Positions 3,570-45,390 of a DNA stretch of 64,000 nt are shown here, piece by piece (position 1 is the stretch's first letter; every line of letters begins with the position of its first letter). This DNA comes from Hyunsoonleella jejuensis (GTDB taxonomy: Bacteria; Bacteroidota; Bacteroidia; Flavobacteriales; Flavobacteriaceae), in the NCBI RefSeq assembly GCF_900111025.1, contig NZ_FOFN01000001.1, positions 496,001 to 560,000 of the forward strand, in the 5' to 3' direction. Under the pieces are notes generated by a model, which made no database searches, had not been told where the DNA came from, and was given only the letters and a program-made list of their open reading frames with translations. The translations under genes and the position numbers were made by a program.

Positions 3570-3582
3570 TTTCTGTAATTTT

Positions 3583-5010: not shown

Positions 5011-5071
5011 TTACTTCATAAAGTTATTTTAATATGTTGTCATGCATTACAACAAAACATTCTATTTGTTT

Positions 5072-5983: not shown

Positions 5984-6039
5984 TGCTAAATTGTTTTATT
6001 TAATTATTCATTTTTAGTTTAGAAATAATTCATTTCTAT

Positions 6040-9658: not shown

Positions 9659-9677
9659 TGAACTAAGTTTATTACTA

Positions 9678-10952
9678 TTAATTTGCATGCCATTCCTCGG
9701 CATTTGGAGGAACTTCAACATCTTTCATCATAGCGTCTTTATCTCCGTTATAGGTTTTTGTTATCCGGTTGCCATTTCGTGTTAGCCCATCAAATGTTCC
9801 TTTGTCCACTTCGCCCCAAAGTGCATATTTTGCTTTTCCATCAACTTTGAACAACCCAAAGTGTTTTTCAGAATTTCCTGAGTTTTCTCCACCTTTCCAT
9901 GGCTCGTCAAAGCCTTCAAAGTAAAAACATGACATACCAGCCCCGTTAGTCCAATCTCTCATATGCTGATAATACAAGGCTTCTTTGTATTCATCACAAG
10001 CTTTTGAGCCTGTTGTACCATAATGTCCTGAAGAGAAACTCGCCCATCCTGTTTCGCCAATGTGAATTGGCTTGTTAACTCCAAGACTTTCCATATATTT
10101 CTTCACATTAGCTGTTTGGGTGATGGCATATTCCTTAGCCCTTAACATGGATATTTCTATTTTTTCCATATCTGTTTTACCTTCAAGACCATCTTGATTT
10201 AACCAAAATTCAGGTTGATAATGTGTATCATGCATAGGGTAGGTGTGAACCGAAAGAAAATCTACTGCCTTGATTAAATTGTTCAAATCTTCAACATGGT
10301 ATTCCTCGCCGCCACCGCCCCAAGAGGCAAAATTATCGGAACTTGTTACCCATACATCCTGAGATAACTTTCCTTCTTTCTTTAAATCTTGAAGATAATT
10401 CACCCATTTCAAGATTACCCAAGGCTCAACATAATAACTGGCTGCCCATTTTACCATAGCTTCGTTACCTACAGCAATTACTTTTACAATATCTGGATAC
10501 TGGTTTGCTAGAGCAACAGCTTTTTCCATTTGTGGTTTATTGGCTTCACTTTCTTCGTTATGAATTGGTTCTTGGTCTGTCCAAGCATTTTTACAGTCAA
10601 TCCAAGCACCCAACATTACATACATTTCAAAACTTGGGTCGTTTGCTTTTAGCTCGCTTATAGCTTGTAAAAGATTTTCGGCTTGGGGCAAATGCACTTT
10701 GTAGGTACGAACTATTCTGATACCCATAGCATGCAGAATTTTCATGTCGTCCTTAAGTTCTTCTAGTGTAGGCTCAATACTATGATCGGCATACCTATAT
10801 CCTCCATAAGACATGGCCAAATACTTTGGGTTTCCCAAAATATCTTTTGCGGTTAGTTGCTTGTTTTCTTCTCCTTTGTTCACATTACTCTTTTTGGAAT
10901 TATTGCAAGACCACATAAAACAGGCTAATAGTATGATTAGAACCTTTTTCAT
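9678..10952 (-). CDS. GH17 beta-1,3-glucanase lipoprotein (424 aa)
   Basis: A longer GH17 enzyme with a lipoprotein signal (MWSC, Cys16) and a short polar linker to about residue 33. Acid/base is Glu164 (AVGNEAM) and nucleophile Glu300 (IGETGWAS). The region FYFEGFDEPWKGG replaces FSSFDESWK of the shorter GH17s. The lipid anchor puts it in the periplasm or on the cell surface, upstream of import. It follows the paralogous cytoplasmic GH17 gene (10955-12163) with only 2 bp between stop and start, indicating translational coupling. The pair look like a gene duplication in which one copy has an export signal and the other does not. Confidence 0.9.
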   Translation of the reverse strand: MKKVLIILLACFMWSCNNSKKSNVNKGEENKQLTAKDILGNPKYLAMSYGGYRYADHSIEPTLEELKDDMKILHAMGIRIVRTYKVHLPQAENLLQAISELKANDPSFEMYVMLGAWIDCKNAWTDQEPIHNEESEANKPQMEKAVALANQYPDIVKVIAVGNEAMVKWAASYYVEPWVILKWVNYLQDLKKEGKLSQDVWVTSSDNFASWGGGGEEYHVEDLNNLIKAVDFLSVHTYPMHDTHYQPEFWLNQDGLEGKTDMEKIEISMLRAKEYAITQTANVKKYMESLGVNKPIHIGETGWASFSSGHYGTTGSKACDEYKEALYYQHMRDWTNGAGMSCFYFEGFDEPWKGGENSGNSEKHFGLFKVDGKAKYALWGEVDKGTFDGLTRNGNRITKTYNGDKDAMMKDVEVPPNAEEWHAN

Positions 10953-10954
10953 AA

Positions 10955-12163
10955 TTAATAATTAAATGTCATTTCAGTTCTTAACGGTGGAATATGAACT
11001 TCTGAAAGTAAATCTTCCTTGCTCCCGTTATACGTTTTGGTAATTGAACGACCGTCTCTGGTTAAACCCTTAAAAATACCCTTGTCCACCAAATCCCAAA
11101 TGGCATATTTTGCTTCACCTTTTAGATTAATTAGCCCAAAATGGTTTTCAGATCCTAAAGGGTTATTAGCGTCTTTCCATGGTTCATCAAATGCTTCAAA
11201 ATAAAAACAAGATATCTCTTCGCTATTTGTCCAATCTCTCATCAACTGAAAATATCGTCCTGATTTATATTCGTCTGCCGCTTTTGAACCATCGGCCCCG
11301 TAATGTTCGTTAGATAAAGTAGCCCAACCTGTTTCGCCTATATGAACGGGCTTGTTAATACCCAAACGCCTCATATAATTTACCACTGCATCAAATTGTT
11401 GTTGAGAAAACAGTAAAGCGCGTTGCATTGCCGATTCTATCTTCTCTAGATCTGATAATACTGCCTCTTCCTCTGGAACTAACCAAAATTTAGGATTATA
11501 ATGTGAATTATGCATAGGGTAGGTGTGCATTGAAATATAATCTACTGCTCTAATAAGCTCATTTAAATCTTCGGTGTGATAGATTTTGTCACCACCGCCC
11601 CAAGACGAAAAATCATCTGAACTCGTTATCCATAGGTCCTTGGATAATTCTCCTTCTTTTTTTAAGTTTTGTAAATGATTTACCCATTTAAGTATAACCT
11701 TAGGACGCACAAAATAACTTGTGGCCCAGTGCACCATAGCTTCATTACCAACAGCAATAATTTTTACAATGTCTGGGTACTGTTTTGCTAGTGCCACGGC
11801 CCTGTCTATTTCACCAGCATTTTGTTCGCTTTCAATCTCATGGTTAGGCGCCAAATCTGTCCATGCGTTCTTACAATCAATCCACGCACCCAACATTACA
11901 TACATTTCAAAACTTGAGTCTTTAGCTTTTAACTCCGATATCGCTCTCAATAGGTTAGGGGCTTGCTGTAATTGCACATTATAAGTTCGCAATATCCTAA
12001 CGCCCATTGCAAACAATATTTTCATATCGTCCTTAAGTTCAGATATCGTAGGTTGAATATCTCGAGTTTTATGGCGATAACCCCCATAGGAAATAGCTAA
12101 ATAATTAGGGTTTCCTAATATATCCGCAGCTGTAATATGTTTTTTTTTGTTAGATCTCATCAT
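10955..12163 (-). CDS. GH17 beta-1,3-glucan hydrolase without signal peptide (402 aa)
   Basis: A GH17 enzyme aligned along its whole length with the lipoprotein at 9678-10952: ILGNPNYLAISYGGYR against ILGNPKYLAMSYGGYR, and YVMLGAWIDCKNAWTD identical in both. The catalytic pair is Glu141 (AVGNEAM) and Glu277 (IGETGWAT). It begins MMRSNKKKHI with no hydrophobic segment, so it is predicted cytoplasmic. The gene starts 12 bp after the GH149 phosphorylase gene. The likely job is trimming imported beta-1,3-glucan oligosaccharides or transferring them so that the phosphorylase can use them; that partnership is inference. Confidence 0.88.
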   Translation of the reverse strand: MMRSNKKKHITAADILGNPNYLAISYGGYRHKTRDIQPTISELKDDMKILFAMGVRILRTYNVQLQQAPNLLRAISELKAKDSSFEMYVMLGAWIDCKNAWTDLAPNHEIESEQNAGEIDRAVALAKQYPDIVKIIAVGNEAMVHWATSYFVRPKVILKWVNHLQNLKKEGELSKDLWITSSDDFSSWGGGDKIYHTEDLNELIRAVDYISMHTYPMHNSHYNPKFWLVPEEEAVLSDLEKIESAMQRALLFSQQQFDAVVNYMRRLGINKPVHIGETGWATLSNEHYGADGSKAADEYKSGRYFQLMRDWTNSEEISCFYFEAFDEPWKDANNPLGSENHFGLINLKGEAKYAIWDLVDKGIFKGLTRDGRSITKTYNGSKEDLLSEVHIPPLRTEMTFNY

Positions 12164-12175: not shown

Positions 12176-15100
12176 CTATTTTACTATAGAAACGATAATT
12201 TTATTTACTTCGCCCTTTCTTTCAAAAATTGATTTGGAAGCTGCCCAATCTAGCTCTAGCGAATCGAAAACTACAAGTCTACCATTATTGAAAAACACCT
12301 GTGTCTTTTCTTTGTCAGACAATTTGTAGACAATCGGCACTTGGCAATAAGTAAACCCTAAAGTGTTTTCTTCCATTGCCATTTCTTCAGTTTCTCCTTT
12401 TACATTAGTGAAAATGAAAACTGAAGATGCTTTTAAGAACTCCTTGGTTTGTAACAAACTAGGTTTGAAGCTTAATTTTCCGTCTTTAACAAAAACGCCT
12501 AATTCGCCAAAACGACTCAGAATATCTTCTTTTACTTGCCCCGTCATTCCAGGCTGTTGTGCACCTTTTGTAGCCGGCGTATGCGAATATGGATCGGTTG
12601 GGAAAGCTCCATATAATTCTGGTGATTTATGTACGCCAATACCTGCATTAATTTCGTAATAATGATCTAATAGTCTGCCAACAACTTCTGGTGTTTCGTT
12701 AGTGTCTACTGCAAGCAAACAATTCTCTTGAACAGCCAATAATAATTTCGACACCATATGCCAATAAATTGAGCCTAAACCTTCATAACCAAAGAAGGTT
12801 CCGGAACGCCCCGTGAAGGATTTATGGTCAAAAATATCCTCAAATAATTGCAGTAAAGCCCCTTCTTCCTTTTCAACTAAACCTTGATAAGAATCATCTA
12901 AATTTGATAATGCTGTTTTTAAACTATTAGCATTGTTAAAGTTGCCATTAAAGTGATACCCACCTTTAATATCTTTCTCAATTATGTGTCGGTTTCCATC
13001 CTCCAGCAATCGCTTTAATAAAAGTGATTGGTTAACTTTTTCCGAAGGAATATTGTTCTTTTTATCAAATCTTGGTAGCTCTTTATTTGGGTATAATATA
13101 TAGCTGTATTGATCTTCTCTAAATAGTGCGCTTTCTTTTAAACCATCTAATAAATTGAGTGCCTGAGCAGGGGAGAGATAACCCGAACTTAAAGCCGCAA
13201 CCTGACCTTCTAACATTTCCGATAGATAAGAGATAGAAACCTCATCATGGTTCTCAACCGTCATTAAATTATAGGCGTGATACATGTTGTCATCACGCTT
13301 ATTGGCACCAATACTATGTTCTAAATATGATTTTGTAACTTCAATAAAACTAGAAATTTCATCTAGGCTTAATATTGATTTCTTACTTGTAAAACCTTCT
13401 TTATAAATGGTTTCTCTATAATTGCTTCCCGCATTTCCTAAGCCATCAAGTACAGTTTTACGGTCTTTATCTGAAATCGGACCTGATAAAATGTTGGCAT
13501 TATCTTGAAGCGTTGCCTTAACTTTACCAAAAAATGTTAATAGTTCTTCTGAAATCGTAACTTCTTTTATTTCAGTTTTAGCAACGATTTTTTCAAAGAA
13601 ATTTAAAAACCTGTAAATGTAATACAGGGTCACCATAGATACGCCATTACCAACCAAAGCGTTGTTAGCGTCGTTCCATTCAGGACGTTGTGTGTTTAAC
13701 CAAATACCGCCTTCTGGAATAAAATTAGAAATTTTTGAAAGTACTGTAGCCAGTAATTTTTCAATAAAATTAACTTTATGAATACCGTCTTTTTGGTTTC
13801 TTAGCAATGCACCATCTGCACCAATTTCCTTTCTTCTCTCGTTGATTAATGCATCTAACTTGTGATCGAAATCAATAGTGTCTTTAGGGTTTTTTAATGT
13901 ATCTGCATAGCTTTTGATTTTGTATGGCACATTGGCATATACAAATACATCCTGATTGAAACGCTTTTCTAGAGCATTGGGGTAGTGGTTTTGGATAATC
14001 TCTAGAAACTTTAGTAAATAAATAATTTGATGATCGCCCCAATAACCAATGTAAGACCAAGGATCATGTTCTTCTATAACCTCCCAATCAAAACCATCTT
14101 TAGTCACACGATAAGGATTGTACCCTTCAAAAGTTGTAGCGTTTAAAAACTTGTGAATCATCCCTTCCAGAAACTCAGGATATGACAGCGATAGCGCTTC
14201 CCAATTTTGGAAAATATCGCGCCAGTTGCCTTCGTAGTCTAAAATTTTAGATCCATCTACTTCACTTCGGGTATTAATAGAAAATTTATTCCATGGACGA
14301 CTTGGGTCACCATGTCTTCTACTGAACTTTAGAGGTAAATATTCAAAACATAAACGTTTGAAGTTTGTATTGCTACTTTTTTCAGCAAATCCATAAATAT
14401 CATTAATACTAAAGTTTTCGGGTAACGTAGTTAAAGTGTTTTGTTTTTCCTTGTAAACTTGATTATTTGCCTTTAAAATATAAGTAATGAAATCTCCCTT
14501 TTCAATAGTGTAGCCGTCATCAAAAATACCACCTCTCATAATATTGAAAAGCGTATTAGAAAAATGACGCACGTTAATTAAGGGGTCTTCTGTGACCTGC
14601 AACCCATCTGACGCTGCGGCTAACTTTATCAAGTTCTCGGTTCCTAGATCAATGTTTTTTTGAACCAGAGCATCTAAGTTGGTTTCATTTTTTATTAGCT
14701 CACAAATCTCTACCACATCTGAAATTGATTGATTTACATTGGCAGCAAACAACCAGCTTTCTTTGTCTCCAGCAGGTATTTCTAAATCAGCTGAAACAAA
14801 ATAAGCGCCTTTTTCCGCTTTAACATCCACTTCTTCAGTAATACTTTCTCCTCTTCTAAAATTATCCAACTGCAAAGATGAAATAAGATGTGTGGGGTTT
14901 TCTAATCCTGTAGACCAAACTATATTTGCTTTTAAAGCCTCACTAGGTTCTGCTTTGTCAACTATTACCGCACTAAGCGCATAAATACCTAAGCCTGCAT
15001 CTTGTTGAAGTTCACTTTTCTTGTAGGCATCCACTAAATTACTTCTACTATTCTGCAAATCGGCTGTTACGCTTGCAGGCAAAAGATTCTGTAAGCCATC

Positions 15101-15586
15101 AAGGACCGTTACTTTAAGAGTCGCATCTGAGTTGTTAATTAAGGATGCCTTTTTAATAAACCCATATTTATTACTAGAATTCCACTCATATCTATAAGTA
15201 ATGCCAATATCTGTATTCTGTTGTTCAAAGATTATTTTATTGCCATAGATGTTCTTGTAAAGATTGGTTTCTGTTTTGTAAATGCCCATTTGACGAATTG
15301 AAAAAGGTTCCCAAATACTGGATTTTCCTTCAATATCAATCTGAAGAATCGTCTTACTCCCGGTAAACTCCGCCATTTCAGTGATTTTGTCGTCTGTGTA
15401 GTAAGGAAACAGTGAGTACTCAGCATTTTTACGTCCCGCCGTTAAGCCACCGTTACTTGAAATAAACATCCAATGGTTAGAGTCGCTTACGATACTCATA
15501 AAAAACGGTCGCATCTTATCACTATTGGAAATCTTATAGAATTGCTCGCCATCGAGATTTACTAATTCTCCCTTTACCCCTTTCAT
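12176..15586 (-). CDS. GH149 beta-1,3-glucan phosphorylase (1136 aa)
   Basis: A very long cytoplasmic protein related to GH94 cellobiose-type phosphorylases. Its length (over 1100 residues against about 800 for GH94) and beta-1,3-glucan context match GH149 beta-1,3-oligoglucan phosphorylases. Visible landmarks are the N-terminal beta-sandwich (SNGGLTAGRKNAEYSLFPYY), EGNWRDIFQNWEAL in the alpha/alpha barrel, RPEWNDANNALVG with probable general acid Asp639, and a C-terminal PATKGAQQPGMTGQ-like loop (TKGAQQPGMTGQVKED). The reaction is beta-1,3-glucan(n) plus phosphate to glucan(n-1) plus alpha-glucose-1-phosphate. No signal peptide is present, as expected for a phosphorylase. It follows a terminator-like hairpin at 15640-15685 and leads the cytoplasmic half of the operon. 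The GH149 assignment rests on length and motifs, not on a search. Confidence 0.85.
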   Translation of the reverse strand: MKGVKGELVNLDGEQFYKISNSDKMRPFFMSIVSDSNHWMFISSNGGLTAGRKNAEYSLFPYYTDDKITEMAEFTGSKTILQIDIEGKSSIWEPFSIRQMGIYKTETNLYKNIYGNKIIFEQQNTDIGITYRYEWNSSNKYGFIKKASLINNSDATLKVTVLDGLQNLLPASVTADLQNSRSNLVDAYKKSELQQDAGLGIYALSAVIVDKAEPSEALKANIVWSTGLENPTHLISSLQLDNFRRGESITEEVDVKAEKGAYFVSADLEIPAGDKESWLFAANVNQSISDVVEICELIKNETNLDALVQKNIDLGTENLIKLAAASDGLQVTEDPLINVRHFSNTLFNIMRGGIFDDGYTIEKGDFITYILKANNQVYKEKQNTLTTLPENFSINDIYGFAEKSSNTNFKRLCFEYLPLKFSRRHGDPSRPWNKFSINTRSEVDGSKILDYEGNWRDIFQNWEALSLSYPEFLEGMIHKFLNATTFEGYNPYRVTKDGFDWEVIEEHDPWSYIGYWGDHQIIYLLKFLEIIQNHYPNALEKRFNQDVFVYANVPYKIKSYADTLKNPKDTIDFDHKLDALINERRKEIGADGALLRNQKDGIHKVNFIEKLLATVLSKISNFIPEGGIWLNTQRPEWNDANNALVGNGVSMVTLYYIYRFLNFFEKIVAKTEIKEVTISEELLTFFGKVKATLQDNANILSGPISDKDRKTVLDGLGNAGSNYRETIYKEGFTSKKSILSLDEISSFIEVTKSYLEHSIGANKRDDNMYHAYNLMTVENHDEVSISYLSEMLEGQVAALSSGYLSPAQALNLLDGLKESALFREDQYSYILYPNKELPRFDKKNNIPSEKVNQSLLLKRLLEDGNRHIIEKDIKGGYHFNGNFNNANSLKTALSNLDDSYQGLVEKEEGALLQLFEDIFDHKSFTGRSGTFFGYEGLGSIYWHMVSKLLLAVQENCLLAVDTNETPEVVGRLLDHYYEINAGIGVHKSPELYGAFPTDPYSHTPATKGAQQPGMTGQVKEDILSRFGELGVFVKDGKLSFKPSLLQTKEFLKASSVFIFTNVKGETEEMAMEENTLGFTYCQVPIVYKLSDKEKTQVFFNNGRLVVFDSLELDWAASKSIFERKGEVNKIIVSIVK

Positions 15587-15701: not shown

Positions 15702-17876
15702 TTATAACTGTTTAACTACTACGTCATCAATGTATACAACACCGCCACCATCAGCATTACCACTTCCAGTTAACTGAAGTAACAATGAAATACCTTCTGC
15801 AATATCTCCAGCAGTTTCAAATGTGCCTGTAAAAGTATTCCAAGTATTTAAAGGTTGATCTGTTGCATTGCCCAAATTATGCTCAACAGCTCCTTCCGTT
15901 TTTTCAGAAAAAGCCAAGACTTGTAAAATCGACCCTGTTCCAAGTGCGGTTGTAAATCTATATTTAAAAGTTACTTCCACTGTAGTTCCTGGAGCAATAG
16001 TTGATGCAAAACGCTCCCATTTAATATTCGGTGCTTGATTAGCTCCAGTAGTTAATTTTGCAGAATAGGTACCCGTGTTTGCTTGCTCGGTACTAACAGC
16101 AGCAATTCCTCCGTTTAAATTAAACTGCCAACAAGCGCCATCGCCATTATTAGCTTCAAAACCACCATTAGCTAGCAACTCTCCAGAAGGAGGTTCAGGA
16201 CAAGCGCCACCTCCGCCGCCGCCTCCACCGGAGCCGCCGCTGTTAAGTTTTAAATCGTCAAAGTAATAGACATTGGTATTTGCTGGCCCTTCTAGATCAA
16301 AGAATATTACTAACCTATCATAAATACCACTATCAGCAGTTCCAAACGGAATGGTCAGTTCTTCCCAGTCGTTCGTTTTAGTTGTTACAGCAGAGAACCT
16401 GTCTCCAGAATTTGTAGCTCCTGAGGATGTTTTATCTTCTAGTTTCAATGCCACCTTATAACCCGATACTGGGGAAAAGACTTTTATAGAGAAACTATCT
16501 CCATCTGAAAAAGTAAATTTTTCATCAAAATCTATCTGTAGATTATCCCATGGTTGTACGCCAGATTTAGTTACTTTTCCAACTTTACAGGAGGTATTTA
16601 CCGACCCATTAAAATCTGGATTGTCAACATACTCATACGTTACGTTATCTTGGAAGAATTTATTTGACTCGGACCCTTGAGTAGCTGTCGTGCCTGGGTC
16701 GTTCATAAAAGTCAAATTTAAATCAGATGGACTTAAAGACTGCATGGTTTCAGCAGTACAGCCGCCTCCACCGCCTCCGCCACCCCCGAGGTTAAGCTTA
16801 ATGTCATCTATGTAGTACGCATTCGTATTTGCAACGCCTTGTAAATCAAAGAAAATCACCATCTTATCATAAATACCACTCGCGCTAGCATTAAATGGAA
16901 TGGTTAACTCTTCCCATTCGTTCGTTTTTGTAGTTTGAGTTGTAGATAATACATCACCAGAATTTATAGCTCCAGCCGAACCTTTATCTTCTAGTTTCAA
17001 GGTAACGTTATAGCCAGCAACCGGCGAGTATATTTTCATTGTAATACTTGAGCCGTCTGTAAACGTAAATTTATCATCGAAATTTATTTGTAGGTTATCC
17101 CATGGTTGCACGCCAGATTTAGTAATTTTACCAACTTTACACGATTTGTTTACATCATTGTCAACATCTGGGTTGTTTACATATTCGTAGGTTACATTAT
17201 CCTCGAATATACTAACCCCTCCACCGGCAACTTCAGGATCGGTTAAGAAAGTAATATTAAGGTCTGCCGTATCATAGGACTCTTCGGTTTCTGCCTCACA
17301 TGCAATAGCAGAAACTATTACCGTTCTTTCAACTTCATCTGCTGCGTTACCTTGAGAATCCGAAACATTATACGTTATTACATAAGTACCCTCTGTACTC
17401 GTGTCTACAGTATCGCCTCCAACAACGATATTAGCGGTAATATCACCATCAACTTCATCAAGCGCTGTAGCACCAGGATCTGTGAATGTATCCCCTAATG
17501 TTACATTTATTGTTGCATCTCCTACTAAGGCAATTAGTGGCGCTTCGGTATCTAATACCATTATTGTTGACTCGAACGTATCTGAAGCTCCAGCAACATT
17601 TGTTGCAGTTAATTTTACCGTGTAAGATCCAATTCCATAGGCAAATACAGGATTAATTAAGCTTGAGGTCGTATTATTTTGATCACCAAAATTCCAAGTA
17701 TACTTATTAGCATTCTCTGATACATTTATAAACGTAGCTACCCCTGCATCGCTTAGCGTATAGGTAAAACCTGCAGTAACTGTTGGTAAAACCGCATCAT
17801 CTTCTTCGCAACCAATAAAAGCTATCGCTAAAATTAGTAATGAAATTTGTTTAAATTTTATAAATAATTGTTTCAT
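15702..17876 (-). CDS. multidomain surface lipoprotein: PKD, Ig-like, two CBM-like repeats and a C-terminal CBM (724 aa)
   Basis: A lipoprotein signal with FIGC (Cys23) is followed by a PKD domain (about residues 35-108, YTWNFGD), a DUF5011/HYR-type Ig domain (about 112-190, with the motif DEVDGDIT), and two tandem copies of a module of about 165 residues (about 195-363 and 378-545). A C-terminal carbohydrate-binding-like beta-sandwich (about 565-724, starting LLANGGFEANNGD) ends in YIDDVVVKQL. Poly-glycine linkers of 8-10 residues separate the last three domains. No catalytic motif is seen. It probably binds glucan at the surface, like SusE/SusF-type glycan-binding proteins, and follows the GH16 gene by 18 bp. 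Ligand specificity is not readable from sequence. Confidence 0.82.
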   Translation of the reverse strand: MKQLFIKFKQISLLILAIAFIGCEEDDAVLPTVTAGFTYTLSDAGVATFINVSENANKYTWNFGDQNNTTSSLINPVFAYGIGSYTVKLTATNVAGASDTFESTIMVLDTEAPLIALVGDATINVTLGDTFTDPGATALDEVDGDITANIVVGGDTVDTSTEGTYVITYNVSDSQGNAADEVERTVIVSAIACEAETEESYDTADLNITFLTDPEVAGGGVSIFEDNVTYEYVNNPDVDNDVNKSCKVGKITKSGVQPWDNLQINFDDKFTFTDGSSITMKIYSPVAGYNVTLKLEDKGSAGAINSGDVLSTTQTTKTNEWEELTIPFNASASGIYDKMVIFFDLQGVANTNAYYIDDIKLNLGGGGGGGGGCTAETMQSLSPSDLNLTFMNDPGTTATQGSESNKFFQDNVTYEYVDNPDFNGSVNTSCKVGKVTKSGVQPWDNLQIDFDEKFTFSDGDSFSIKVFSPVSGYKVALKLEDKTSSGATNSGDRFSAVTTKTNDWEELTIPFGTADSGIYDRLVIFFDLEGPANTNVYYFDDLKLNSGGSGGGGGGGGACPEPPSGELLANGGFEANNGDGACWQFNLNGGIAAVSTEQANTGTYSAKLTTGANQAPNIKWERFASTIAPGTTVEVTFKYRFTTALGTGSILQVLAFSEKTEGAVEHNLGNATDQPLNTWNTFTGTFETAGDIAEGISLLLQLTGSGNADGGGVVYIDDVVVKQL
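16210..16245. repeat. GC-rich poly-glycine codon tract
   Basis: The plus strand is almost pure CCG/CCT/CCA, encoding a Ser-Gly8 linker on the minus strand in otherwise AT-rich DNA. A sister tract lies at about 16760-16792. Tracts like this tend to change length by slippage. Confidence 0.7.
16760..16792. repeat. second GC-rich poly-glycine codon tract
   Basis: A run of glycine codons (CCG/CCT/CCA/CCC on the plus strand) encodes the linker between the first and second CBM-like repeats of the 15702-17876 lipoprotein. It is distinct in sequence from the tract at 16210-16245. Confidence 0.7.
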
Positions 17877-17894: not shown

Positions 17895-18743
17895 TTAGTT
17901 GTTTCTTTTATATACTCGCACATAATCTACCAGCATGGTTTGTGGAAAAACGGTTTCTGCGTCAGGATTTCCAGGAAGTGATCCGCCAACCGCTACATTT
18001 AAAATTATATAAAACGGGCCTCTGTTAAAGACCCATTCGCCAGGGACATCTTCTGGTGTAATTTGACTGTATAACTTGTCGTCTACATACCAATTGATAT
18101 AATCTGGCCCCCATTCTATTCCGAAAATGTGGAAACCTGAGTCAAACCTAGCGCCTTCCAACTCATAAGATTTACTAATTGATTCTCCTCCAGAATATCC
18201 AGGACCATGTACAGTTCCAAAGACTGTTGTTGGTTCGTCTCCAACATATTCCATGATATCAATTTCGCCAATTTGAGGCCAAATCTCAGTGCCATTGGAA
18301 TCATCACCCAAAAGCCAAAAAGCAGGCCATAACCCTTTTCCATTGGGTAACTTAATACGTGCTTCAAAACGCCCGTAGGTTTGCTCTAGCTTGCCCTTAG
18401 TAAGCAGTCTTGCCGAAGTGTAGTTTGATCCCTGAAATTGCTCTTGTTTTGCAGTTATAATAAGGAAACCATTTTGAACAGTTACATTTTCTGGGCGGTC
18501 TGTATAATACTGCAATTCGTTATTTCCCCATCCATTTTGTCCAGTACCAATTTCATACCCCCAAATACCAGGGTTAGGTGCGCCATCTGTATCAAACTCA
18601 TCTGCCATAACAAGGTTCCTAAAAGTGGCTACGGTTTGAGTTTCATCTGTTTCACAGCTATAGATAACAAATACCGCTATCAATAGAAAAGACATAAACA
18701 GTAAGGTTTTTTCCTTAATATTATCATTTATTGTTTTATTCAT
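17895..18743 (-). CDS. GH16 endo-beta-1,3-glucanase (laminarinase) lipoprotein (282 aa)
   Basis: A family GH16 enzyme with the signature GEIDIMEYVG: nucleophile Glu160, assisting Asp162 and acid/base Glu165. WPAFWLLG precedes it and the typical HGPGYSGG follows. The lipoprotein signal ends IYSC (Cys30), so the enzyme is probably anchored on the outer membrane. The catalytic domain fills nearly the whole mature protein, with no accessory CBM. Motif details and context favour laminarin over agar or carrageenan. It is 32 bp downstream of the surface glycan-binding protein gene and 18 bp upstream of the PKD/CBM lipoprotein gene, so one transcript would provide binding and first cutting at the cell surface. 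Confidence 0.92.
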   Translation of the reverse strand: MNKTINDNIKEKTLLFMSFLLIAVFVIYSCETDETQTVATFRNLVMADEFDTDGAPNPGIWGYEIGTGQNGWGNNELQYYTDRPENVTVQNGFLIITAKQEQFQGSNYTSARLLTKGKLEQTYGRFEARIKLPNGKGLWPAFWLLGDDSNGTEIWPQIGEIDIMEYVGDEPTTVFGTVHGPGYSGGESISKSYELEGARFDSGFHIFGIEWGPDYINWYVDDKLYSQITPEDVPGEWVFNRGPFYIILNVAVGGSLPGNPDAETVFPQTMLVDYVRVYKRNN

Positions 18744-18775: not shown

Positions 18776-20233
18776 TTACTCACTATAGAAGTAAATGTTG
18801 TCTAAAATGAAATTTGGTCCTCCAGCTAAGATGAGGGCTCCTAAATTGTTCTTTTGAGCAGTAAGGTCTCCATCTAAAGGAATATCTAAAGATGTCCAAG
18901 CTCCAACAGTTAAACCAGTAGCATCAAATCTTTTATCCTTGTCATCTCCATCAGGCAAACCAGTGAAGATATTTGTTTCTATCTCGCCATTCGCTCCAAC
19001 GTCTCTAATTTGTATATTAATATTGGTTCCTGCTTCTTCTGTATAAATATCGACATGCATGTGTGTTAATGTTGACGCATCCACTCGATTATTAAAGAGT
19101 ATTCCTGTAAAATTATTATTGGCATAAACTTGAACTAACTGTCCTGGAGGTCCAACCTCCGTAACCTCTGTAGTTGATCCACCGAAACCAGGACTAAAAT
19201 TACTTTCCGTGACCGCAGTATAAACATCACTATATATAGATTTAACATTGGCAGCTGGCCTCATTGGCACCGGAGCTAGAGGCAACGCACCGCTAGAGGT
19301 TACTGTTAAAGATCCTTCTGCTTTAACACCTGCTAATTCTGCTGTTATTTCAGTCGCTCCTTCTCCAATAACGCTAACAATACCTAGTTGATTTACAATA
19401 GCAACATCGCTATCTGAAGAAATGAAATCGAAATATGCTGGAGCTCCACTAACTTCCACATTATCACCAGCAACATCGTATTTTATTGATAGGCCTTGGG
19501 ATGCAATATTTAATTCGCTTCCTGTAAAGGTTTGTTGCACTAAATCCTGCCCACTAAATACAATTGGTCTTGGTTGAGAAACAATTCCTGTTTTTTCGAA
19601 CTTCAACTCATCGATCCAAAAAGTCCAAGCTATTTCATTTCCATTCGGACCATCTCCAAGTGAGTCAAAACCGCCTGCAGCAAAGAAGAACATACCAGTT
19701 TCTTGAATTAACTTTGATGGATCTGGTATCGGAACTATATATTTCTTCCATCCAGTGGTCATTTGTATAACATTGGCAACAGCGTAGGAAGGTTCACTTT
19801 CTAATCGATCAAAATCGGTACCAAAACCAACTTCTACGGTTCCAGATGTAGTTCCTTGCGCCCAGAACGTTAGGGCATCATATCCTGTTAAATTTCTTCC
19901 CGCTCCACGGTCTTCAAAAATTCCGCCAATAAAGTTTCCATTGGGATCGTTAGAAGCGGGTACATCAATTCTTATCGCAGAAGTTCCTTTGTAGAATGTG
20001 TTATTATCTACACCAAAACCGTCAGTATTTGCGCCTGCTGCTGGATCGAAAGATCTAAAAAATTGATCTGTAAGTCCTACTGGGGCATCTATAAAGATGT
20101 CACCTGCTGTTGGGAATTTAGCAAATGTTGCTTCATCAGAAAGCTCTCTTTCGCAACTAAGAACAAGCACCATCGTACACGTTAAAAGGAATGTGTACTT
20201 GAAATATGTAAATTTTATATTTTTCATTTTCAT
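18776..20233 (-). CDS. surface glycan-binding lipoprotein with Big_2-type Ig domain (485 aa)
   Basis: A lipoprotein signal (VLSC) follows a basic N-terminus. I place the start at ATG 20233 (MKMKNIKF), 1 bp after the upstream stop. A longer frame from 20287 would run 53 bp into the GH2-barrel gene. The first 200 residues form a beta-rich, CBM-like domain (WTFWIDELKFEKTG at its end). A bacterial Ig-like domain follows (SDSDVAIVNQLGIVSVIGEG), and a second CBM-like domain ends in FILDNIYFYSE. No hydrolase motif is visible. Position and architecture match SusE/SGBP-type proteins of laminarin loci, which hold glucan at the cell surface. That role is inferred. Confidence 0.8.
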   Translation of the reverse strand: MKMKNIKFTYFKYTFLLTCTMVLVLSCERELSDEATFAKFPTAGDIFIDAPVGLTDQFFRSFDPAAGANTDGFGVDNNTFYKGTSAIRIDVPASNDPNGNFIGGIFEDRGAGRNLTGYDALTFWAQGTTSGTVEVGFGTDFDRLESEPSYAVANVIQMTTGWKKYIVPIPDPSKLIQETGMFFFAAGGFDSLGDGPNGNEIAWTFWIDELKFEKTGIVSQPRPIVFSGQDLVQQTFTGSELNIASQGLSIKYDVAGDNVEVSGAPAYFDFISSDSDVAIVNQLGIVSVIGEGATEITAELAGVKAEGSLTVTSSGALPLAPVPMRPAANVKSIYSDVYTAVTESNFSPGFGGSTTEVTEVGPPGQLVQVYANNNFTGILFNNRVDASTLTHMHVDIYTEEAGTNINIQIRDVGANGEIETNIFTGLPDGDDKDKRFDATGLTVGAWTSLDIPLDGDLTAQKNNLGALILAGGPNFILDNIYFYSE

Positions 20234-20234
20234 C

Positions 20235-23200
20235 TTATTTACCGATATTAATATGTATATATGTTCTGATTTCCCATTCATTTCCATTGTCGAAACCTAC
20301 CGGACTTAATGGAGGAACGCCAGGAAATGTATTTGGTGGAACCGCGGTAGGTGCATACCTTGGTGAGAACTCATCTAATGAACGCCAAATACCACGGATA
20401 CCAATTTTAGTTTCTGGCATAATAAACCAATCTGGTTTGCTAATTGATGTAGAAATATCAATCATGTTTTGCACAGGGAATGTTAAATTAAAGTCACGAT
20501 GGTAATCAAAAGGCCCCCAATCGTTAATTTTACAACTGTACTCCATTTTCCACTTTTTGTAAATCATTTTGATATCGCCACCAAAGCGGTCTATAGTTCT
20601 ATCGCTATCACCTTGGGCTTGCGCTGTACCTCCATAAAAATTACCAATTATGCCTATATCTGGACTAACCCTAGATACAATACGAGAGCTTAACTCCCAT
20701 AAATCTTGTGCTGGCGCAGCTTGAGGAAATGCGAAAAAAGTACGATTCGCTAAGAAACCAATATGTGCGTCTTGTGCTGTTGGATGGTGTCTATACACAA
20801 AACCTAAGTTAAAGGCAAACTTTGCATCCTCTGCCCTGTCGTTATCCCATTCGTAGAACCATGATCCCGGAGTAGGGTCGAAGGTTAAAAGCAACTCTCC
20901 TGCCGTAGTTTCTCTGTTGCCTCCTCGGACAGCAAAAGGATCGTCAATAAAATTTCTTAATCTTCCTGGAGCTGAAACATCGTTTGGCATTGGGTCTACC
21001 AACGGTTTTTGCCAAAGAAAATTAGGTGCTATTTGCCAATTTCCTATTAGGTAAGTAAATCCAGAAAGTATGTTGGTTTGGTTACCACTTCCAGAATCTT
21101 TAAGCTTCCATCCTGTAAAAGTTCTAGTAGCATCTGCACCACCATTGGCTACCAAGCCCATATAAGCTGCTTGTCCATACCAGTTAAACTTACCGGCTTG
21201 AAGGGTTATTTTAGCTTTCCCTCCCCAGTTATCATCTGAGTTTATTTTGTCTTGGTAAACTGTATAGTTACCTGGCCCTCCTGTTACATCTTGGAAGGTA
21301 CTACCATTTAATGGACTACCTCCCCAAATTCCCCCAAGTGAAATACCTAATTTTCCAAATTCTTTTTCAAGAACCAAAGTTGCACGTTCTGTTGGCCATG
21401 GTGGAATTACACCCGATCTAACTTGGTTAGGATCCAAAATTCGACGACCGTTTTCATCAAAACTTAGTGAAGTGTTTACATCTCTATGATAAATCCCGGT
21501 AATATCCCAGTGTTTAAATTGGGTTCGGTATTTTAAAAGCATTGTTGGATTTGCGCCCCACCATAATTGCGGCCCAAATGCTGCTTTTAAACCTTTAAAG
21601 GCACGCTTTCCGTCTATCTCTAGTCCTAAAATTTCACCGTTGTAAATGTCTAGGTTAGGCCCATAATTCGCTTCTGGATACAACCCGAAAAAATCACCTT
21701 CATATCCCCAGTGGTAGTGCCCTGTTCTGTAAAAGCCTCTTACATCTGCATGTTTTGTTTGCCAATCAAACTCCGCATTGTAAACTCTTAGGCGATTATT
21801 ATCTGTAATTACAATTTCTTCACCATTATCATTAATCACAGTAATTGGCCTGCCAACATTCTCGTAGAAAATCTCGTTAATCGGGTTTTGTGCCACATTT
21901 CCCAAGATATTGAAGTTGACCTCTGCAGTCATATTAGATGTTGGTTTCCCCTCAACCCCTACATAGTAAGATTGCATATGATCGAAACCAAGTTGGTTTG
22001 GAAATGTATTTGTATCTGGATCTGCATTTTCCGGGGTGGTAATTAAACTACCTCCTGTGTTAAAAGTTGTAAACTCCGCTCTAAGATTGCTTAATTTAAT
22101 TTTTCCACCGCTTTGAGCATCAAGGGCTGCCTTATCTCCCCGTGCTGTTAAAACTGCATCCATTAAATTGATGCTGTTAAAATAATTTTGAATGAAATCT
22201 TGATTGACACCTTCATCGTAAGGATTCAATTGATGGGCTTCTTTTAGTGCATAGTATGCTGCTCTTGGATATAAATCGTATAAACCTCTTGGGCTTGTTG
22301 GGCCTTTGGCGCAGATACCAAACCACTCTTCATTCATATTATTTTCACCTGGTGCTAGGTCTATTGAGTATCCACCATTAGCCCATGATGCATTATTATC
22401 ATGCACGTCGGCATTTTCTCTTTTATCGAAACCATACTTCCACCAGCCATCACTGAATTGAAATGTAAACCCTCCTATAGAGTTTTGTGCTTTTCCTAAA
22501 CCAGCAGCATTTGCATAAATTTCTCTCCAGTTTTCTACCATGTAATAGGCCTGAGACTTCTGGTCTTCTTTATTTTCAATAGCATTGAACGCATCTGCAC
22601 CGAACTCTGTAAACATAATTGGTTTATCCAATTTCGTTTTAACAACATCAAACATGTCTGTGAATGATGAGCCTCGATAAGAGTTTACGCCATAGATATC
22701 CACATCCTTACATTCCTCAGCCACAATATCAATAAATAACACATCTCCATTACATATTGCTACTGGATGTGAATCATCCATCTCTTTCATTATCTTTGCA
22801 GCCTCGTTCATTAATTTATACATGGGCCTTCCACGACTTTCTCCAATAAAGTTTATTCTGCCTTCATCATCAGGGAAATCTTCTGTTTCTGCTCCTGCCC
22901 AAAACAACCCATAGTTGTTTTCGTTACCCAATAGGTACAGCAACAGACCTGGCGTGTTTTTATATTCCTTTACTAAGTTCTTAACTTCAGAAATTAGAAA
23001 TTCACTTGTTTTTGGATCATCGTATATTGTTACTGGTGTCCAAACGCCTTCAAGCGTTAATCCGTAGCGTCCAAATGAATGATTTAGCATAGTGTATATG
23101 CCATAGTTTTCGTAGATATACTTAATCCACCTTGCCGGCACACCTGTATACTGTCGAATCACATTAACATTCATGTTTCTAAGTAAAGACATCTCGGTAT

Positions 23201-23426
23201 CTAAACCCGCTTTTATGACATCGTCTGATTTGTTCCAAAAATCAGCATTAACAGTGTTGGTGCCAATAGGAATATAATCCCAGTTCATACCATTAATCAT
23301 GAAATCCTCTCCATTGACCACTAACTTCTGGCCCTCTTCATTTTCAACGACCTGTACTTTTGCTGCTTGAGCAAAAACAGAGCATGTAAATAAGAAGAAA
23401 AAGAATCGTAGAAATTTGTTTTTCAT
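20235..23426 (-). CDS. GH2-like glycosidase or transglycosidase fused to a C-terminal outer-membrane beta-barrel (1063 aa)
   Basis: A type I signal peptide ends near FAQA (residue 21). Residues about 25-400 form a GH-A TIM barrel of the GH2 TIM type: acid/base Glu169 in LGNENN and nucleophile Glu274 in FTEFGADAF. No GH2 sandwich domains precede it, and some segments recall GH72 glucanosyltransferases. Residues about 450-1063 alternate aromatic and polar residues in many short amphipathic strands (for example FAFNLGFVYRHH, WKMEYSCKINDWG). They finish with EWEIRTYIHINIGK, as outer-membrane beta-barrels do. It is the first gene after the operon promoter. It may process beta-glucan at the outer membrane and perhaps also provide a pore. 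The family number and activity are open. Confidence 0.75.
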   Translation of the reverse strand: MKNKFLRFFFFLFTCSVFAQAAKVQVVENEEGQKLVVNGEDFMINGMNWDYIPIGTNTVNADFWNKSDDVIKAGLDTEMSLLRNMNVNVIRQYTGVPARWIKYIYENYGIYTMLNHSFGRYGLTLEGVWTPVTIYDDPKTSEFLISEVKNLVKEYKNTPGLLLYLLGNENNYGLFWAGAETEDFPDDEGRINFIGESRGRPMYKLMNEAAKIMKEMDDSHPVAICNGDVLFIDIVAEECKDVDIYGVNSYRGSSFTDMFDVVKTKLDKPIMFTEFGADAFNAIENKEDQKSQAYYMVENWREIYANAAGLGKAQNSIGGFTFQFSDGWWKYGFDKRENADVHDNNASWANGGYSIDLAPGENNMNEEWFGICAKGPTSPRGLYDLYPRAAYYALKEAHQLNPYDEGVNQDFIQNYFNSINLMDAVLTARGDKAALDAQSGGKIKLSNLRAEFTTFNTGGSLITTPENADPDTNTFPNQLGFDHMQSYYVGVEGKPTSNMTAEVNFNILGNVAQNPINEIFYENVGRPITVINDNGEEIVITDNNRLRVYNAEFDWQTKHADVRGFYRTGHYHWGYEGDFFGLYPEANYGPNLDIYNGEILGLEIDGKRAFKGLKAAFGPQLWWGANPTMLLKYRTQFKHWDITGIYHRDVNTSLSFDENGRRILDPNQVRSGVIPPWPTERATLVLEKEFGKLGISLGGIWGGSPLNGSTFQDVTGGPGNYTVYQDKINSDDNWGGKAKITLQAGKFNWYGQAAYMGLVANGGADATRTFTGWKLKDSGSGNQTNILSGFTYLIGNWQIAPNFLWQKPLVDPMPNDVSAPGRLRNFIDDPFAVRGGNRETTAGELLLTFDPTPGSWFYEWDNDRAEDAKFAFNLGFVYRHHPTAQDAHIGFLANRTFFAFPQAAPAQDLWELSSRIVSRVSPDIGIIGNFYGGTAQAQGDSDRTIDRFGGDIKMIYKKWKMEYSCKINDWGPFDYHRDFNLTFPVQNMIDISTSISKPDWFIMPETKIGIRGIWRSLDEFSPRYAPTAVPPNTFPGVPPLSPVGFDNGNEWEIRTYIHINIGK

Positions 23427-23714: not shown

Positions 23715-26528
23715 TTATATCTCTAAAATATAATCTGAAAGGCTGGCTTCATGGGGTAAATCCATTTTTTTTCTTAGTCTGTAGCGCTTTACCTCCACGC
23801 TTCTAGATGAGATATTAAGCAATGGCGCTATTTCTTTGGAAGTTAAATTGAGGCGTAAATAAGCACAAAGCCTTAAATCGTTAGATGTTAAACTAGGATG
23901 CAGTTCTTTAATTTTTTTAAGGAAATCTTTATCCGCGTTATTGAAGGCTTCTTGAAACAAGTTCCAATCGTCGTTGTTATTTAAATTTCTATCGATGATT
24001 TTTATCACTTTACCCAAGGCTTTAGTGTCCTTTATACTTTCAAGCTCTTGTTTTAAACTACTTAAGAACTCATTCTTTTTAATAAGGCTCATTGTGGATA
24101 TACCAAGCTCTCGGTTTTTATTTTCAATATCTTCCCTAAGTTTTTCGTTTTTGAAACGCATCAATTGTTGTTTGTTCTCAAGCTCCTTAAGCTCAAACTC
24201 TCTTGTTGATTTTTTTATCAAACGTTCTCTTTGTTTTCTATAATACCGTTTATAAATATTATGCATTAACAAAGAAAAGAGTAGAACAACTAAAACATAC
24301 AGCCCAATAGCTAAATTAGATAACAACAAAGGTCGTTTAATTCGAAACGCGTAAGTGGCATTATTGGATGTTATCTGATTACCAACCCTTCCCTTTACAA
24401 CAAAATTATAATCGCCGTAAGGTAGGTTTTCAAACAAAACACTTCCACGCGTTGACCAATCGCTCCATTCATCATAAATACCTTCCAATTTATAACTATA
24501 TTCCGGCCTTTCAGTTTTTGAAAACTCTGAAATACTATATCTAATTCTGAGATTGTTTTCTTTATTTCTTAACTCTGGTTTTGTTGATAAATCCATGAAT
24601 GTAATATCGCTTCCGCCTTTAGATGTATTTACTGTAACCCGATTGATATCGATTTTATGGTCATGGCTTTTAATTTTATCTAAATCTAAAATAACATATC
24701 CGGTGGTAGAGCCCAGTAAAAATTGCTGTTCTTCAATTGGTGTAACGCTCTCGTAACCCCTCACGTCTTCACGAATGTCTTCTGGAAAAGGAACGGTAAA
24801 TATCTTTTGCTCACCACTAAGTTTAGACGGTGCTAAGTAATGTATCCCTCTGGATGAAAAACTCCATATTTTATTTGTTTTAGAATCGGCTATTATTTTT
24901 GCCGAAGTGAAATGTTCTATATTTATTAATTTACTTAATGTACTGTCTTTTTCAAAAGCCTTACGTGCTCTATTATAACTAAATACTCCATTTTTATGTG
25001 CATACAACAGGTTATCGTTATAACGAATAAGACTAGAATTTAGACCTTTTTTTAATAGTGTGTCTTTTGAATAGGTAAGTACTTCCGTAAGATCTTCGCT
25101 TAAGGTTAATTTAAAGACACCTTTATATTCATGACTTAAATAAATCTCGTTTGTATCTGCAAACTCAAAATATCTGCTTGAAATATTGAAACCCTTAACT
25201 TTATGTTTTAAGCGCCATTCTCCATTACTTTTATTCAAAATATATAATCCATCGTAATTACCCTGAATTAATTCATTAGGCTTATTCGGTAATTTTTTTA
25301 TTTGCCATGTACCTTGCACATTTGCGATTTTCGAAGCCGTTGACTTGTTAATTATGAACGTTCCAGAATTATGACCACAGAACAGCGTATTTTCAATGAT
25401 ATTTAAAAACCAAACCTGTCCTTGTGTGCCTTCAATAAATTTAAAGTCTTCGTCACTTTTTAAAGGTTTGTAAAACAAACCTTGGTTAGTTCCCAGATAC
25501 AACATTTCGTCGAACACTTTGGAAGCATAAACACTTCCAATAACGCCAGTTTTGTCAAAATAAAACTTAAAAGGAGAATTACTATTTATGCAGTTTATAC
25601 CATTATCTAACCCAAGCCAAATATTATTATCTAAATCTTCAAAAACAGATAAGACCGTATTGTTGGTTAAACCTTCTTTTTGATTTATTTGGTATTTTAT
25701 CTCTCCATTAATAGAAATATGTATAATACCGTCACCAATAGTACCTATTACATAGCTCTTGTCCTTTAATTGAATACTACTAAAAGCACTTACGTCTTGT
25801 AACATAGTATTAGCTGGAATATCCCAAGATGATAGACGATTATTCTCAAGCTTTAAGAACCCTTTATCCTGAGTAAGTATATATAATGCATTGTTACGAT
25901 TATATATATTTACAATAAGATTGTTTTTCAAAATACTATCATTTGAAACTAAAACAGCATTACCGTTTTTTATAACAAATAACCCGTTGTTTATAGTCTG
26001 AAAATATATATCAGTATTTACCTTGAATACACCGGTAATTTTTGATTTTTGATCTATATAGGTGTAAGATTTTGTCTCCTTGTTATAAATATGAATTCTA
26101 TCTAAAGACTGAAAAATAATAACATCTCCTAGTGTAAGTATTTTCCAAAACTCTTCGTCTTCTAGAAACTTTATTTGAAGTTCTTTAGCCAGCGAGGTAT
26201 ATTGTAATCTGCCAAACCTGTTTTTTTTCCAATACCCAAAGTCATGATAACTGCCAGTATAGATTAAATCATCTATTACTGTTACAGCACGAATTATTGT
26301 TTCATTAGGAGACCTGTATAAATTCCAAATTGCACCATTATATTCCAACAAACCTTTATTGTTGGCCACATAAATAAATCGGTTTTGAGATTGAGAAATA
26401 GACCAGTTTTGAGATTCCCCCTGATAATCGCTAGGATAAAATACATTAATAGGCGGACTCTCTTGCCCCGCTATTTTTAAAAATAAACCAGATATTACAA
26501 ACAGTATACAATAACTGATGCGTTTCAC
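23715..26528 (-). CDS. SusR-like membrane regulator: Reg_prop repeats, Y_Y_Y domain, TM, LuxR-type HTH (937 aa)
   Basis: A signal peptide is followed by a periplasmic beta-propeller of two-component-regulator propeller repeats (for example LSVFEDLDNNIWLGLDNGIN, about residues 295-315). A Y_Y_Y domain comes next (about 665-725, YSYKLEGIYDEWSDW), then one membrane helix (about 735-757) and a cytoplasmic coiled coil (about 760-850). The C-terminal helix-turn-helix of LuxR type has the motif LTSKEIAPLLNISSRSVEVK. Unlike hybrid two-component systems it has no histidine-kinase or receiver domain, so it resembles SusR of the starch system. It would sense a glucan fragment in the periplasm and activate genes directly. 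The beta-glucan operon starts 288 bp downstream on the same strand, the obvious target. Confidence 0.88.
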   Translation of the reverse strand: MKRISYCILFVISGLFLKIAGQESPPINVFYPSDYQGESQNWSISQSQNRFIYVANNKGLLEYNGAIWNLYRSPNETIIRAVTVIDDLIYTGSYHDFGYWKKNRFGRLQYTSLAKELQIKFLEDEEFWKILTLGDVIIFQSLDRIHIYNKETKSYTYIDQKSKITGVFKVNTDIYFQTINNGLFVIKNGNAVLVSNDSILKNNLIVNIYNRNNALYILTQDKGFLKLENNRLSSWDIPANTMLQDVSAFSSIQLKDKSYVIGTIGDGIIHISINGEIKYQINQKEGLTNNTVLSVFEDLDNNIWLGLDNGINCINSNSPFKFYFDKTGVIGSVYASKVFDEMLYLGTNQGLFYKPLKSDEDFKFIEGTQGQVWFLNIIENTLFCGHNSGTFIINKSTASKIANVQGTWQIKKLPNKPNELIQGNYDGLYILNKSNGEWRLKHKVKGFNISSRYFEFADTNEIYLSHEYKGVFKLTLSEDLTEVLTYSKDTLLKKGLNSSLIRYNDNLLYAHKNGVFSYNRARKAFEKDSTLSKLINIEHFTSAKIIADSKTNKIWSFSSRGIHYLAPSKLSGEQKIFTVPFPEDIREDVRGYESVTPIEEQQFLLGSTTGYVILDLDKIKSHDHKIDINRVTVNTSKGGSDITFMDLSTKPELRNKENNLRIRYSISEFSKTERPEYSYKLEGIYDEWSDWSTRGSVLFENLPYGDYNFVVKGRVGNQITSNNATYAFRIKRPLLLSNLAIGLYVLVVLLFSLLMHNIYKRYYRKQRERLIKKSTREFELKELENKQQLMRFKNEKLREDIENKNRELGISTMSLIKKNEFLSSLKQELESIKDTKALGKVIKIIDRNLNNNDDWNLFQEAFNNADKDFLKKIKELHPSLTSNDLRLCAYLRLNLTSKEIAPLLNISSRSVEVKRYRLRKKMDLPHEASLSDYILEI

Positions 26529-45137: not shown

Positions 45138-45331
45138 GCAAACGAGTATTAAAATTAATTAACGAAAGTACTAAATTTTAAATGCTTGAATACGTTATTT
45201 TTATAAAAAAAAGGGTTAATTAATTAGACAAAATATAATAATAGTTAGGTTAAACTATTAAGTTTTTAAGAATGTATTAATTGGCTATTTTTTATGGTCT
45301 TAGTTGGTGATGGAATTTGAAAAAACCGCTT

Positions 45332-45352
45332 TTAACAGTATAATATTGTTAA
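45332..45352. promoter_or_regulatory. 21-bp near-palindrome, candidate operator of the GH31 gene
   Basis: TTAACA at 45332 and TGTTAA at 45347 frame a core of nine bases. Eighteen of the 20 non-central positions are symmetric. It sits about 200 bp upstream of the GH31 start, downstream of the glgB terminator. It is AT-rich, so chance is not excluded. Confidence 0.3.
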
Positions 45353-45390
45353 GAAATTACTTTAAAAGCTTCTTTTTTGAAACCGAACAT

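Follow-up and report, generated by a model that had tools for sequence, protein, structure and literature searches.

By which route do laminarin fragments cross the outer membrane when the locus that degrades them holds neither SusC nor SusD? Few carbon stores turned over in the sea are as large as laminarin, and by the common view Bacteroidota import glycans mainly via SusC/SusD. Loci without this pair appear in the accessible parts of PMC10108472, where unclassified glycoside hydrolases (GH0) occur in laminarin loci, one of them lacking susCD, and of PMC10811738, which covers loci resembling polysaccharide utilization loci. A gene of Hyunsoonleella jejuensis bears on this question. It lies at 20235–23426 on the minus strand of a 64,000-nucleotide stretch (contig NZ_FOFN01000001.1, positions 496,001–560,000), hereafter the window, and its product joins a glycosidase to an outer-membrane β-barrel. 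With a probability of about one half, we consider this fusion to be an outer-membrane channel for fragments of the β-1,3-glucan laminarin, with the hydrolase tethered at its periplasmic mouth. If this is true, a conserved fusion so far recorded simply as a GH2 glycosidase would provide laminarin loci without SusC/SusD with an import route, and would be an outer-membrane counterpart of the known MFS-GH17 fusion.

Architecture of the fusion protein

The gene and the parts of its product were located as follows.

20235–23426, minus strand: glycosidase–barrel fusion gene, 1063 residues (open reading frame, two structure models, Foldseek matches)
23367–23426, minus strand: signal peptide, residues 1–20 (MKNKFLRFFFFLFTCSVFAQ), recognized by eye; helix 2–17 in the model
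22227–23357, minus strand: clan GH-A TIM-barrel domain, residues 24–400, GH158-like (Pfam, model, Foldseek, PDB profile)
22920–22922, minus strand: codon of Glu169, predicted acid/base (GNENN); invariant, aligned with the catalytic GNE of GH158 (PMC7157763, accessible part)
22605–22607, minus strand: codon of Glu274, predicted nucleophile (TEFG); invariant, aligned with the TEWG motif of GH158
22107–22202, minus strand: helical linker, residues 409–440 (whole-protein model)
20247–22100, minus strand: predicted outer-membrane β-barrel, residues 443–1060, 24–26 strands (two models, Foldseek, face conservation)

The original prediction, a reading of the letters and open reading frames alone, placed a secreted glycosidase TIM barrel and a β-barrel on one chain, which was confirmed by the open reading frame, a Sec-type signal peptide judged by eye, Pfam, and two structure models. 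Pfam assigned the GH2-type TIM barrel PF02836 to residues 33–283 (E = 4.9e-8). No Pfam match above any cut-off was obtained for residues 434–1063, and the protein matched no NCBIfam model at its cut-off.

AlphaFold2 was run with a 65-row alignment on the whole protein (mean predicted local distance difference test, pLDDT, 75.5; predicted template-modelling score, pTM, 0.52) and on residues 418–1063 alone (mean pLDDT 72.7, pTM 0.71). Both runs gave an identical set of 26 strands between residues 443 and 1060, of which 710–717 and 720–727 are short and may form an outer-loop hairpin, leaving 24 spanning strands with unchanged sidedness. The loops averaged approximately 21 residues after odd strands and 5 after even strands. 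Both ends of the barrel are therefore on the side of the short turns, which by convention faces the periplasm. Inside the strands, hydrophobic and polar residues alternated more strongly than in any of 5000 within-strand shuffles, so that an even strand number, amphipathic strands, loop asymmetry, and a signal peptide, all of which characterize outer-membrane barrels, were found together. When the barrel-only model was compared with the PDB by Foldseek, all 50 listed matches (50 of 861 with E up to 10) were outer-membrane barrels, including TonB receptors, porins, LptD, ushers, and two channels for sugars and polysaccharides, ScrY and AlgE, with a best E of 4.6e-10. Their TM-scores were low (approximately 0.2–0.4), which indicates that no solved barrel of equal size and shape is among the listed rows. 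A profile of the barrel retrieved no related chain from the PDB sequences, giving one chance match (E = 1.4), and no Pfam or NCBIfam family spans this part. The β-barrel proposed for residues 450–1063 is thus what AlphaFold2 predicts, its closure being judged from strand order and structural matches rather than from coordinates. The aromatic-rich final strand proposed with it was seen in part: GNEWEIRTYIHIN, followed by IGK, contains Trp and Tyr, while the end residue here is non-aromatic. The homologue of Bacteroides finegoldii ends in Phe.

An alignment of 108 sequences (effective number 60.7) was used to compare conservation between the faces of 24 strands, the pair 710–717 and 720–727 being excluded because of its hairpin look. 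Conservation on the lumen side exceeded that on the lipid side in 20 of the 24 strands (0.805 versus 0.673; sign test, 8e-4; no control family), and the outer loops 569–597, 621–627, and 971–981 reached 0.94–0.99 versus 0.46–0.88 for the other ten. We take this pattern as a sign that the barrel is a selective channel or a binding site and does more than anchor. It argues against the idea that the barrel merely anchors a periplasmic glucanase while import proceeds via SusC/SusD or other transporters elsewhere, which we regard as unlikely; 600 residues would also make a costly anchor.

The enzyme domain was examined in the same manner. Glu169 and Glu274, singled out in the original prediction, are indeed at these positions and were invariant in all 65 alignment rows, the window protein included, and across 18 enzyme domains, barrel-less versions among them. 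By alignment, they correspond to the two catalytic Glu that follow strands 4 and 7 of the TIM barrel in GH158. With the whole model, GH158 endo-laminarinases took the top five Foldseek rows (E = 6.3e-14 to 1.3e-12), and most of the rows below them were β-glucuronidases and β-galactosidases. A profile of the 18 domains ranked BuGH158 (PDB 6pal) first among PDB sequences (1.6e-6), and its GNENN and TEFG motifs were aligned with GNE and TEWG of that enzyme, whose catalytic residues are Glu137 and Glu220 according to the accessible part of PMC7157763. Furthermore, a GH158-like protein of another genome, which matched GH158(Pro) (PDB 9oro) at 1e-87, aligned with the enzyme domain over both motifs with an hhalign probability of 98.5. 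The shared substrates would be β-glucans, as predicted for the fusion. The identity to GH158 in the Foldseek rows was 12–15% and the Pfam match to PF02836 was stronger; in addition, BuGH158 carries a C-terminal immunoglobulin-like (Ig-like) domain where the fusion carries the barrel. We therefore call the domain GH158-like: by profile and model it is nearest to the GH158 endo-β-1,3-glucanases, of whose family it may be a member, and catalysis on β-1,3-glucan is what we infer for it.

The GH2-type assignment of the original prediction held at the level of Pfam, since PF02836 matched 17 of the 18 family members (best, 1.9e-10), but the structure is closer to GH158. In GH2 enzymes, N-terminal jelly-roll and Ig-like domains precede the TIM barrel; here, the TIM barrel begins directly past the signal peptide and these domains are absent. 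A plain GH2 β-galactosidase or glucuronidase was rejected on that ground and because GH158 structures ranked first. The resemblance to GH72 glucanosyltransferases turned out to be weak: PF03198 was not among the window protein's matches with E of 1 or below and was found in 2 of the 18 relatives (best, 3.7e-5), versus 17 for PF02836, with GH158 endo-laminarinases as the nearest solved structures. A GH72 identity was hence rejected, while transglycosylation by the domain is possible. The two PF03198 matches, AlgE, an alginate exporter, among the barrel matches, and a transglycosylase that is one of the two GH17 enzymes in a Muricauda locus (PMC13188888, accessible part) would fit a β-1,3-glucanosyltransferase whose barrel exports or inserts the bacterium's own glucan. 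We consider such remodelling highly improbable: the Pfam and NCBIfam matches along the strand run are hydrolases, a phosphorylase, and MFS carriers, with no glycosyltransferase among them (one 210-residue gene had no match), and a syntenic Formosa cluster is reported as laminarin-induced in the same part of PMC13188888.

Recurrence of the fusion and its partner lipoprotein

Genomes were sampled at three taxonomic levels, which overlap. In the order, 29 of 296 genomes matched: 13 full-length (own genome included), one with the enzyme alone (G201), and 15 weakly to the enzyme part. In the phylum, 48 of 395 genomes matched, comprising 33 fused frames of 1028–1084 residues, nine matches to the enzyme part (including a broken fused copy, G401, and one at a contig end, G585), one copy interrupted by stop codons (G502), and another five matches that were weak. 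The class sample gave 18 matches among 395 genomes, of which 17 were fusions and one was a lone enzyme. When named genomes were scanned, at least 580 relatives were detected; the best-scoring 80 were kept, a choice biased to full-length copies near the window's own, and all 80 loci were fused. The fusion in 33 of 395 phylum genomes and in these 80 loci led us to reject an assembly error or a chance fusion. The barrel profile matched 35 of the 395 phylum genomes, corresponding to the 33 fusions and two broken copies; no free-standing barrel was found with at most three candidates scored per genome, and a barrel existing as a separate protein was rejected. The same two-domain layout thus recurs in many β-glucan loci across Bacteroidota, which, together with the models and the Foldseek matches, supports an enzyme and an outer-membrane barrel being one polypeptide.

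Bacteroides finegoldii, a gut species, also has such a locus: its fusion is 57% identical to that of the window, and the genes behind it are related to the lipoprotein (34%) and GH16 (50%) genes described below. It is annotated as 'glycoside hydrolase family 2 TIM barrel-domain containing protein', and no SusC/SusD is annotated in the 27 kb of the locus, for which the gene table of the collection is incomplete. Since Bacteroides carries the fusion, the question is approachable in a genetically workable genus. The record (NZ_OY725931.1, locus L209) is labelled 'plasmid 29' and has valine-tRNA ligase, rpsA, and mazG beside the fusion, lipoprotein, GH16, and BglX genes; it looks like a chromosome piece mislabelled as a plasmid. 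A different architecture was noted in genome G093 (L015), where a 1092-residue protein contains a related TIM-barrel stretch (35% identity to residues 239–387).

The gene directly downstream of the fusion encodes a lipoprotein.

18776–20287, minus strand: surface-type lipoprotein, partner gene (weak CBM11 and Big_2 matches below cut-off; acidic after the lipobox Cys); its true start is probably Met21, at 20227

Among fused loci with more than 1.6 kb of downstream sequence, 74 of 76 named and 30 of 31 sampled ones have its homologue immediately behind the fusion, a total (104/107) that is slightly low because L066 was scored negative though the homologue overlaps there. It was found downstream of the lone enzyme in none of eight loci. 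Of five independent pairs, an average of 4.8 showed a joint change of barrel and lipoprotein, and none showed a change in opposite directions (sign test floor, 0.0625); Fisher's test gave 3e-8 for 60/62 versus 0/7 with kinship ignored. Genus g293 contains both states. One locus (L191, G851) has the order SusC, SusD, PKD, GH16, fusion, lipoprotein, GH149, GH17, and GH30, and another (L200, G696) keeps this order but has a lone enzyme in place of the fusion and lacks the lipoprotein; their enzyme domains are not sisters in the tree. Such joint coming and going of a barrel and a surface lipoprotein is a further point against a mere anchor.

In a tree of 70 enzyme domains, for which 30 of the 80 named loci were used and the fragment L163 was omitted, the label fused or alone requires six changes, and starred branches make at least five of these necessary. 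Among the eight lone rows, L162 and L200 are on long branches that were flagged. The scattering of these eight rows among 62 fused ones suggests losses of the barrel, the tree itself being silent on loss versus gain. The lone enzymes L158, L160, L161, L162, and L200 have branches of 0.56–1.22 compared with a median of 0.16, as if unconstrained, and the remaining three have branches of 0.21–0.27.

The sidedness of these proteins was estimated from the residues following the lipobox Cys. In Bacteroidota, lipoproteins bound for the cell surface have an acidic export signal there; its consensus in Flavobacterium johnsoniae is SDDFE according to the accessible part of PMC5080379. When Asp and Glu were counted over positions +2 to +10, we obtained means of 3.9 for the partner lipoprotein (94 scored), 4.04 for PKD (45), 3.38 for SusD (21), and 2.62 for GH16 (92), and of 1.06–1.52 for GH17, 1.69 for GH30, and 1.5 for the lone enzymes (four scored: 0, 1, 2, and 3). 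By this measure, the partner lipoprotein looks surface-exposed, its post-Cys stretch being as acidic as that of SusD, and the lone enzymes look rather periplasmic, which is consistent with the barrel topology. With both barrel ends on that side, the enzyme domain of the fusion is probably periplasmic.

The order of signal peptide, enzyme, helix, and C-terminal barrel recalls type V secretion, in which case the barrel would thread the enzyme to the cell surface, and laminarin would be cut there beside the GH16 and binding lipoproteins. This display is quite unlikely. A classical autotransporter translocator has 12 strands versus the 24–26 found here, and no autotransporter Pfam signature was matched. 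The helix preceding the barrel is disordered in the barrel-only model (pLDDT below 50 for residues 418–440) and does not fill the lumen. Furthermore, the lone enzymes are less acidic past the Cys (1.5) than the surface lipoproteins (3.9).

SusC/SusD and the route across the outer membrane

The position of the fusion as the first gene of a β-glucan operon, as originally proposed, was borne out: it heads a same-strand run of glucan genes, 288 bp past a regulator gene. No Bacteroidota-type promoter pattern was found upstream, and the pattern is no commoner in the window than by chance. The other genes are as follows.

23715–26528, minus strand: Y_Y_Y/LuxR-type regulator adjoining the operon (Pfam, NCBIfam)
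17895–18743, minus strand: GH16 lipoprotein, probable surface endo-β-glucanase (Pfam, post-Cys residues)
15702–17876, minus strand: PKD/Ig-like surface-type lipoprotein (Pfam, post-Cys residues)
12176–15586, minus strand: GH149 1,3-β-glucan phosphorylase (NF058639, E = 0; no signal peptide by eye)
10955–12163, minus strand: GH17 enzyme, by eye without a signal peptide (Pfam score slightly below cut-off)
9678–10952, minus strand: GH17 lipoprotein, periplasmic type (few acidic residues after Cys)
8165–9721, minus strand: GH30 enzyme with a lipoprotein-type signal (Pfam, NCBIfam, N-terminus)
6707–8137, minus strand: MFS sugar transporter (Pfam)

On the channel reading, the surface lipoproteins (partner, GH16, and PKD protein) would bind and cut laminarin outside the cell, and the oligosaccharides would pass into the 24–26-strand barrel with its conserved lumen and some conserved outer loops. 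The partner lipoprotein may act at the outer face of the barrel, as SusD does on SusC, and the GH158-like domain would cut the oligosaccharides as they arrive. We infer that this cleavage on arrival would make passive entry one-way without TonB energy. The periplasmic GH17 and GH30 enzymes, the MFS carrier, and the cytoplasmic GH149 phosphorylase would then complete the breakdown.

The fusion resembles SusC/SusD in that an outer-membrane barrel gene is directly followed by a surface-type lipoprotein gene in a glucan locus. It differs in having no plug or TonB-receptor match in Pfam or NCBIfam, in the enzyme domain at its front, and in a partner with no SusD match. The strand number differs as well, since a SusC-type barrel has 22 strands and the fusion 24–26. 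Identification as SusC or a TonB receptor was therefore rejected, and the layout is neither that of SusC nor that of SusD, in line with the original prediction, which knew of no standard Sus component built in this way.

SusC and SusD were counted in loci with at least 6 kb of upstream sequence, using profiles made from laminarin-locus and own-genome copies, by which other types could be missed. Among the fused loci, 40 of 62 named and 27 of 29 sampled ones (67/91) yielded neither protein, and one further sampled locus had SusC alone. Both were present in three of seven lone-enzyme loci. The own genome gave 11 SusD matches, none of them within the window, and the ten stretches with these matches held no homologue of the window GH16, GH17, or GH149. 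Its SusC proteins beside SusD showed at best 25–39% similarity to the laminarin-locus SusC group, whose members are at least 41% alike. One of these pairs (L182, C8 of the own genome, approximately 75–83 kb) is followed by two GH30 genes and perhaps belongs to a separate β-1,6-glucan locus.

Several points weigh against the channel reading. A plugless pore this wide would be leaky unless closed by loops or the partner. SusC and SusD were both present in 22 of the 62 named and one of the 29 sampled fused loci (23/91), which indicates that the fusion system is not simply a substitute. The presence of the barrel was not linked to the absence of SusC/SusD (12/55 fused and 3/7 lone loci with the pair; p = 0.34), and a simple exchange of the one for the other was rejected on this basis. 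SusC/SusD elsewhere in the genome, or TonB transporters lacking SusD, for which no search was made, could import laminarin. The confidence of the models is moderate, and how the two domains lie relative to each other is uncertain (pTM 0.52). The face comparison lacks a control family, and conservation averaged over all outer loops (0.726) does not exceed the value for the strands (0.728). Finally, a lipid-anchor-type Cys ends the signal region in six of the eight lone enzymes with an N-terminus (by eye; a stricter script gave four), from which membrane anchoring itself seems to matter.

This last point fits an anchor, for which the lipid would be an alternative means, as do SusC and SusD near 23 of the 91 fused loci and the 11 SusD matches of the own genome. 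The low similarity of the own-genome SusC to the laminarin-locus group speaks against it. Between pore and anchor, both entertained in the original prediction, the conserved lumen and the fact that barrel and lipoprotein are missing together favour a role beyond anchoring, while the lipoprotein-type signals of most lone enzymes fit anchoring as well. The fusion could also be auxiliary to a TonB-dependent transporter, for instance as a scaffold gathering surface lipoproteins round it. Its conserved outer loops could form a docking face, and fusion and SusC/SusD share the locus in 22 of 62 named cases; the 67 of 91 fused loci without the pair nearby, and a conservation that is high in the lumen as well as outside, make this very unlikely. 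Returning to the channel, a broader version may tentatively be put forward, which we hold with less confidence: a phylum-wide, TonB-independent uptake of β-1,3-glucan, from the sea to the human gut, in which a plugless barrel capped by a lipoprotein would stand in for SusC/SusD in most carrier loci and hydrolysis by the fused GH158-like domain would replace TonB energy.

Related systems and neighbouring genes

A fusion of similar logic is FORMB_24740 of Formosa (PMC6246565, accessible part), which joins an MFS carrier and GH17; both fusions put a transporter and a laminarin hydrolase into one polypeptide in laminarin loci. Since FORMB_24740 has a 12-helix MFS carrier, it belongs to the inner membrane, unlike the outer-membrane barrel described here. 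The cellulose cluster chu_1276–chu_1280 of Cytophaga hutchinsonii, as described in the accessible part of PMC12016534, combines a barrel-type outer-membrane protein, an SGBP-B-like lipoprotein, and an endoglucanase without SusC/SusD. Barrel and enzyme are separate genes there, and the comparison with the fusion is by description only.

The gene itself seems to have been met before. In the accessible text of PMC13188888, an upstream gene of the Muricauda laminarin loci is called a GH2 β-glycosidase and, elsewhere, a β-1,6-glucosidase; it is very probably the fusion, because contig SGIU01000001.1 of that study carries a fused locus (L051). The GH0 gene in PMC10108472 may be the same gene. The barrel half is not mentioned for either gene in the accessible parts of the two papers, and those of PMC11345257 and PMC6298971 contain no mention of a glycosidase–barrel fusion. 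No description of one was found in the literature searched, to which supplements and most subscription journals do not belong; it may exist elsewhere.

Two neighbouring regions of the window were also noted. The same-strand run continues at 2640–6672 with more GH17 and MFS genes and a 210-residue protein with no Pfam match. At 42735–50975, GH31, α-amylase/CBM48, maltokinase-cap, and GlgE-type genes stand in a row, corresponding to α-glucan metabolism.

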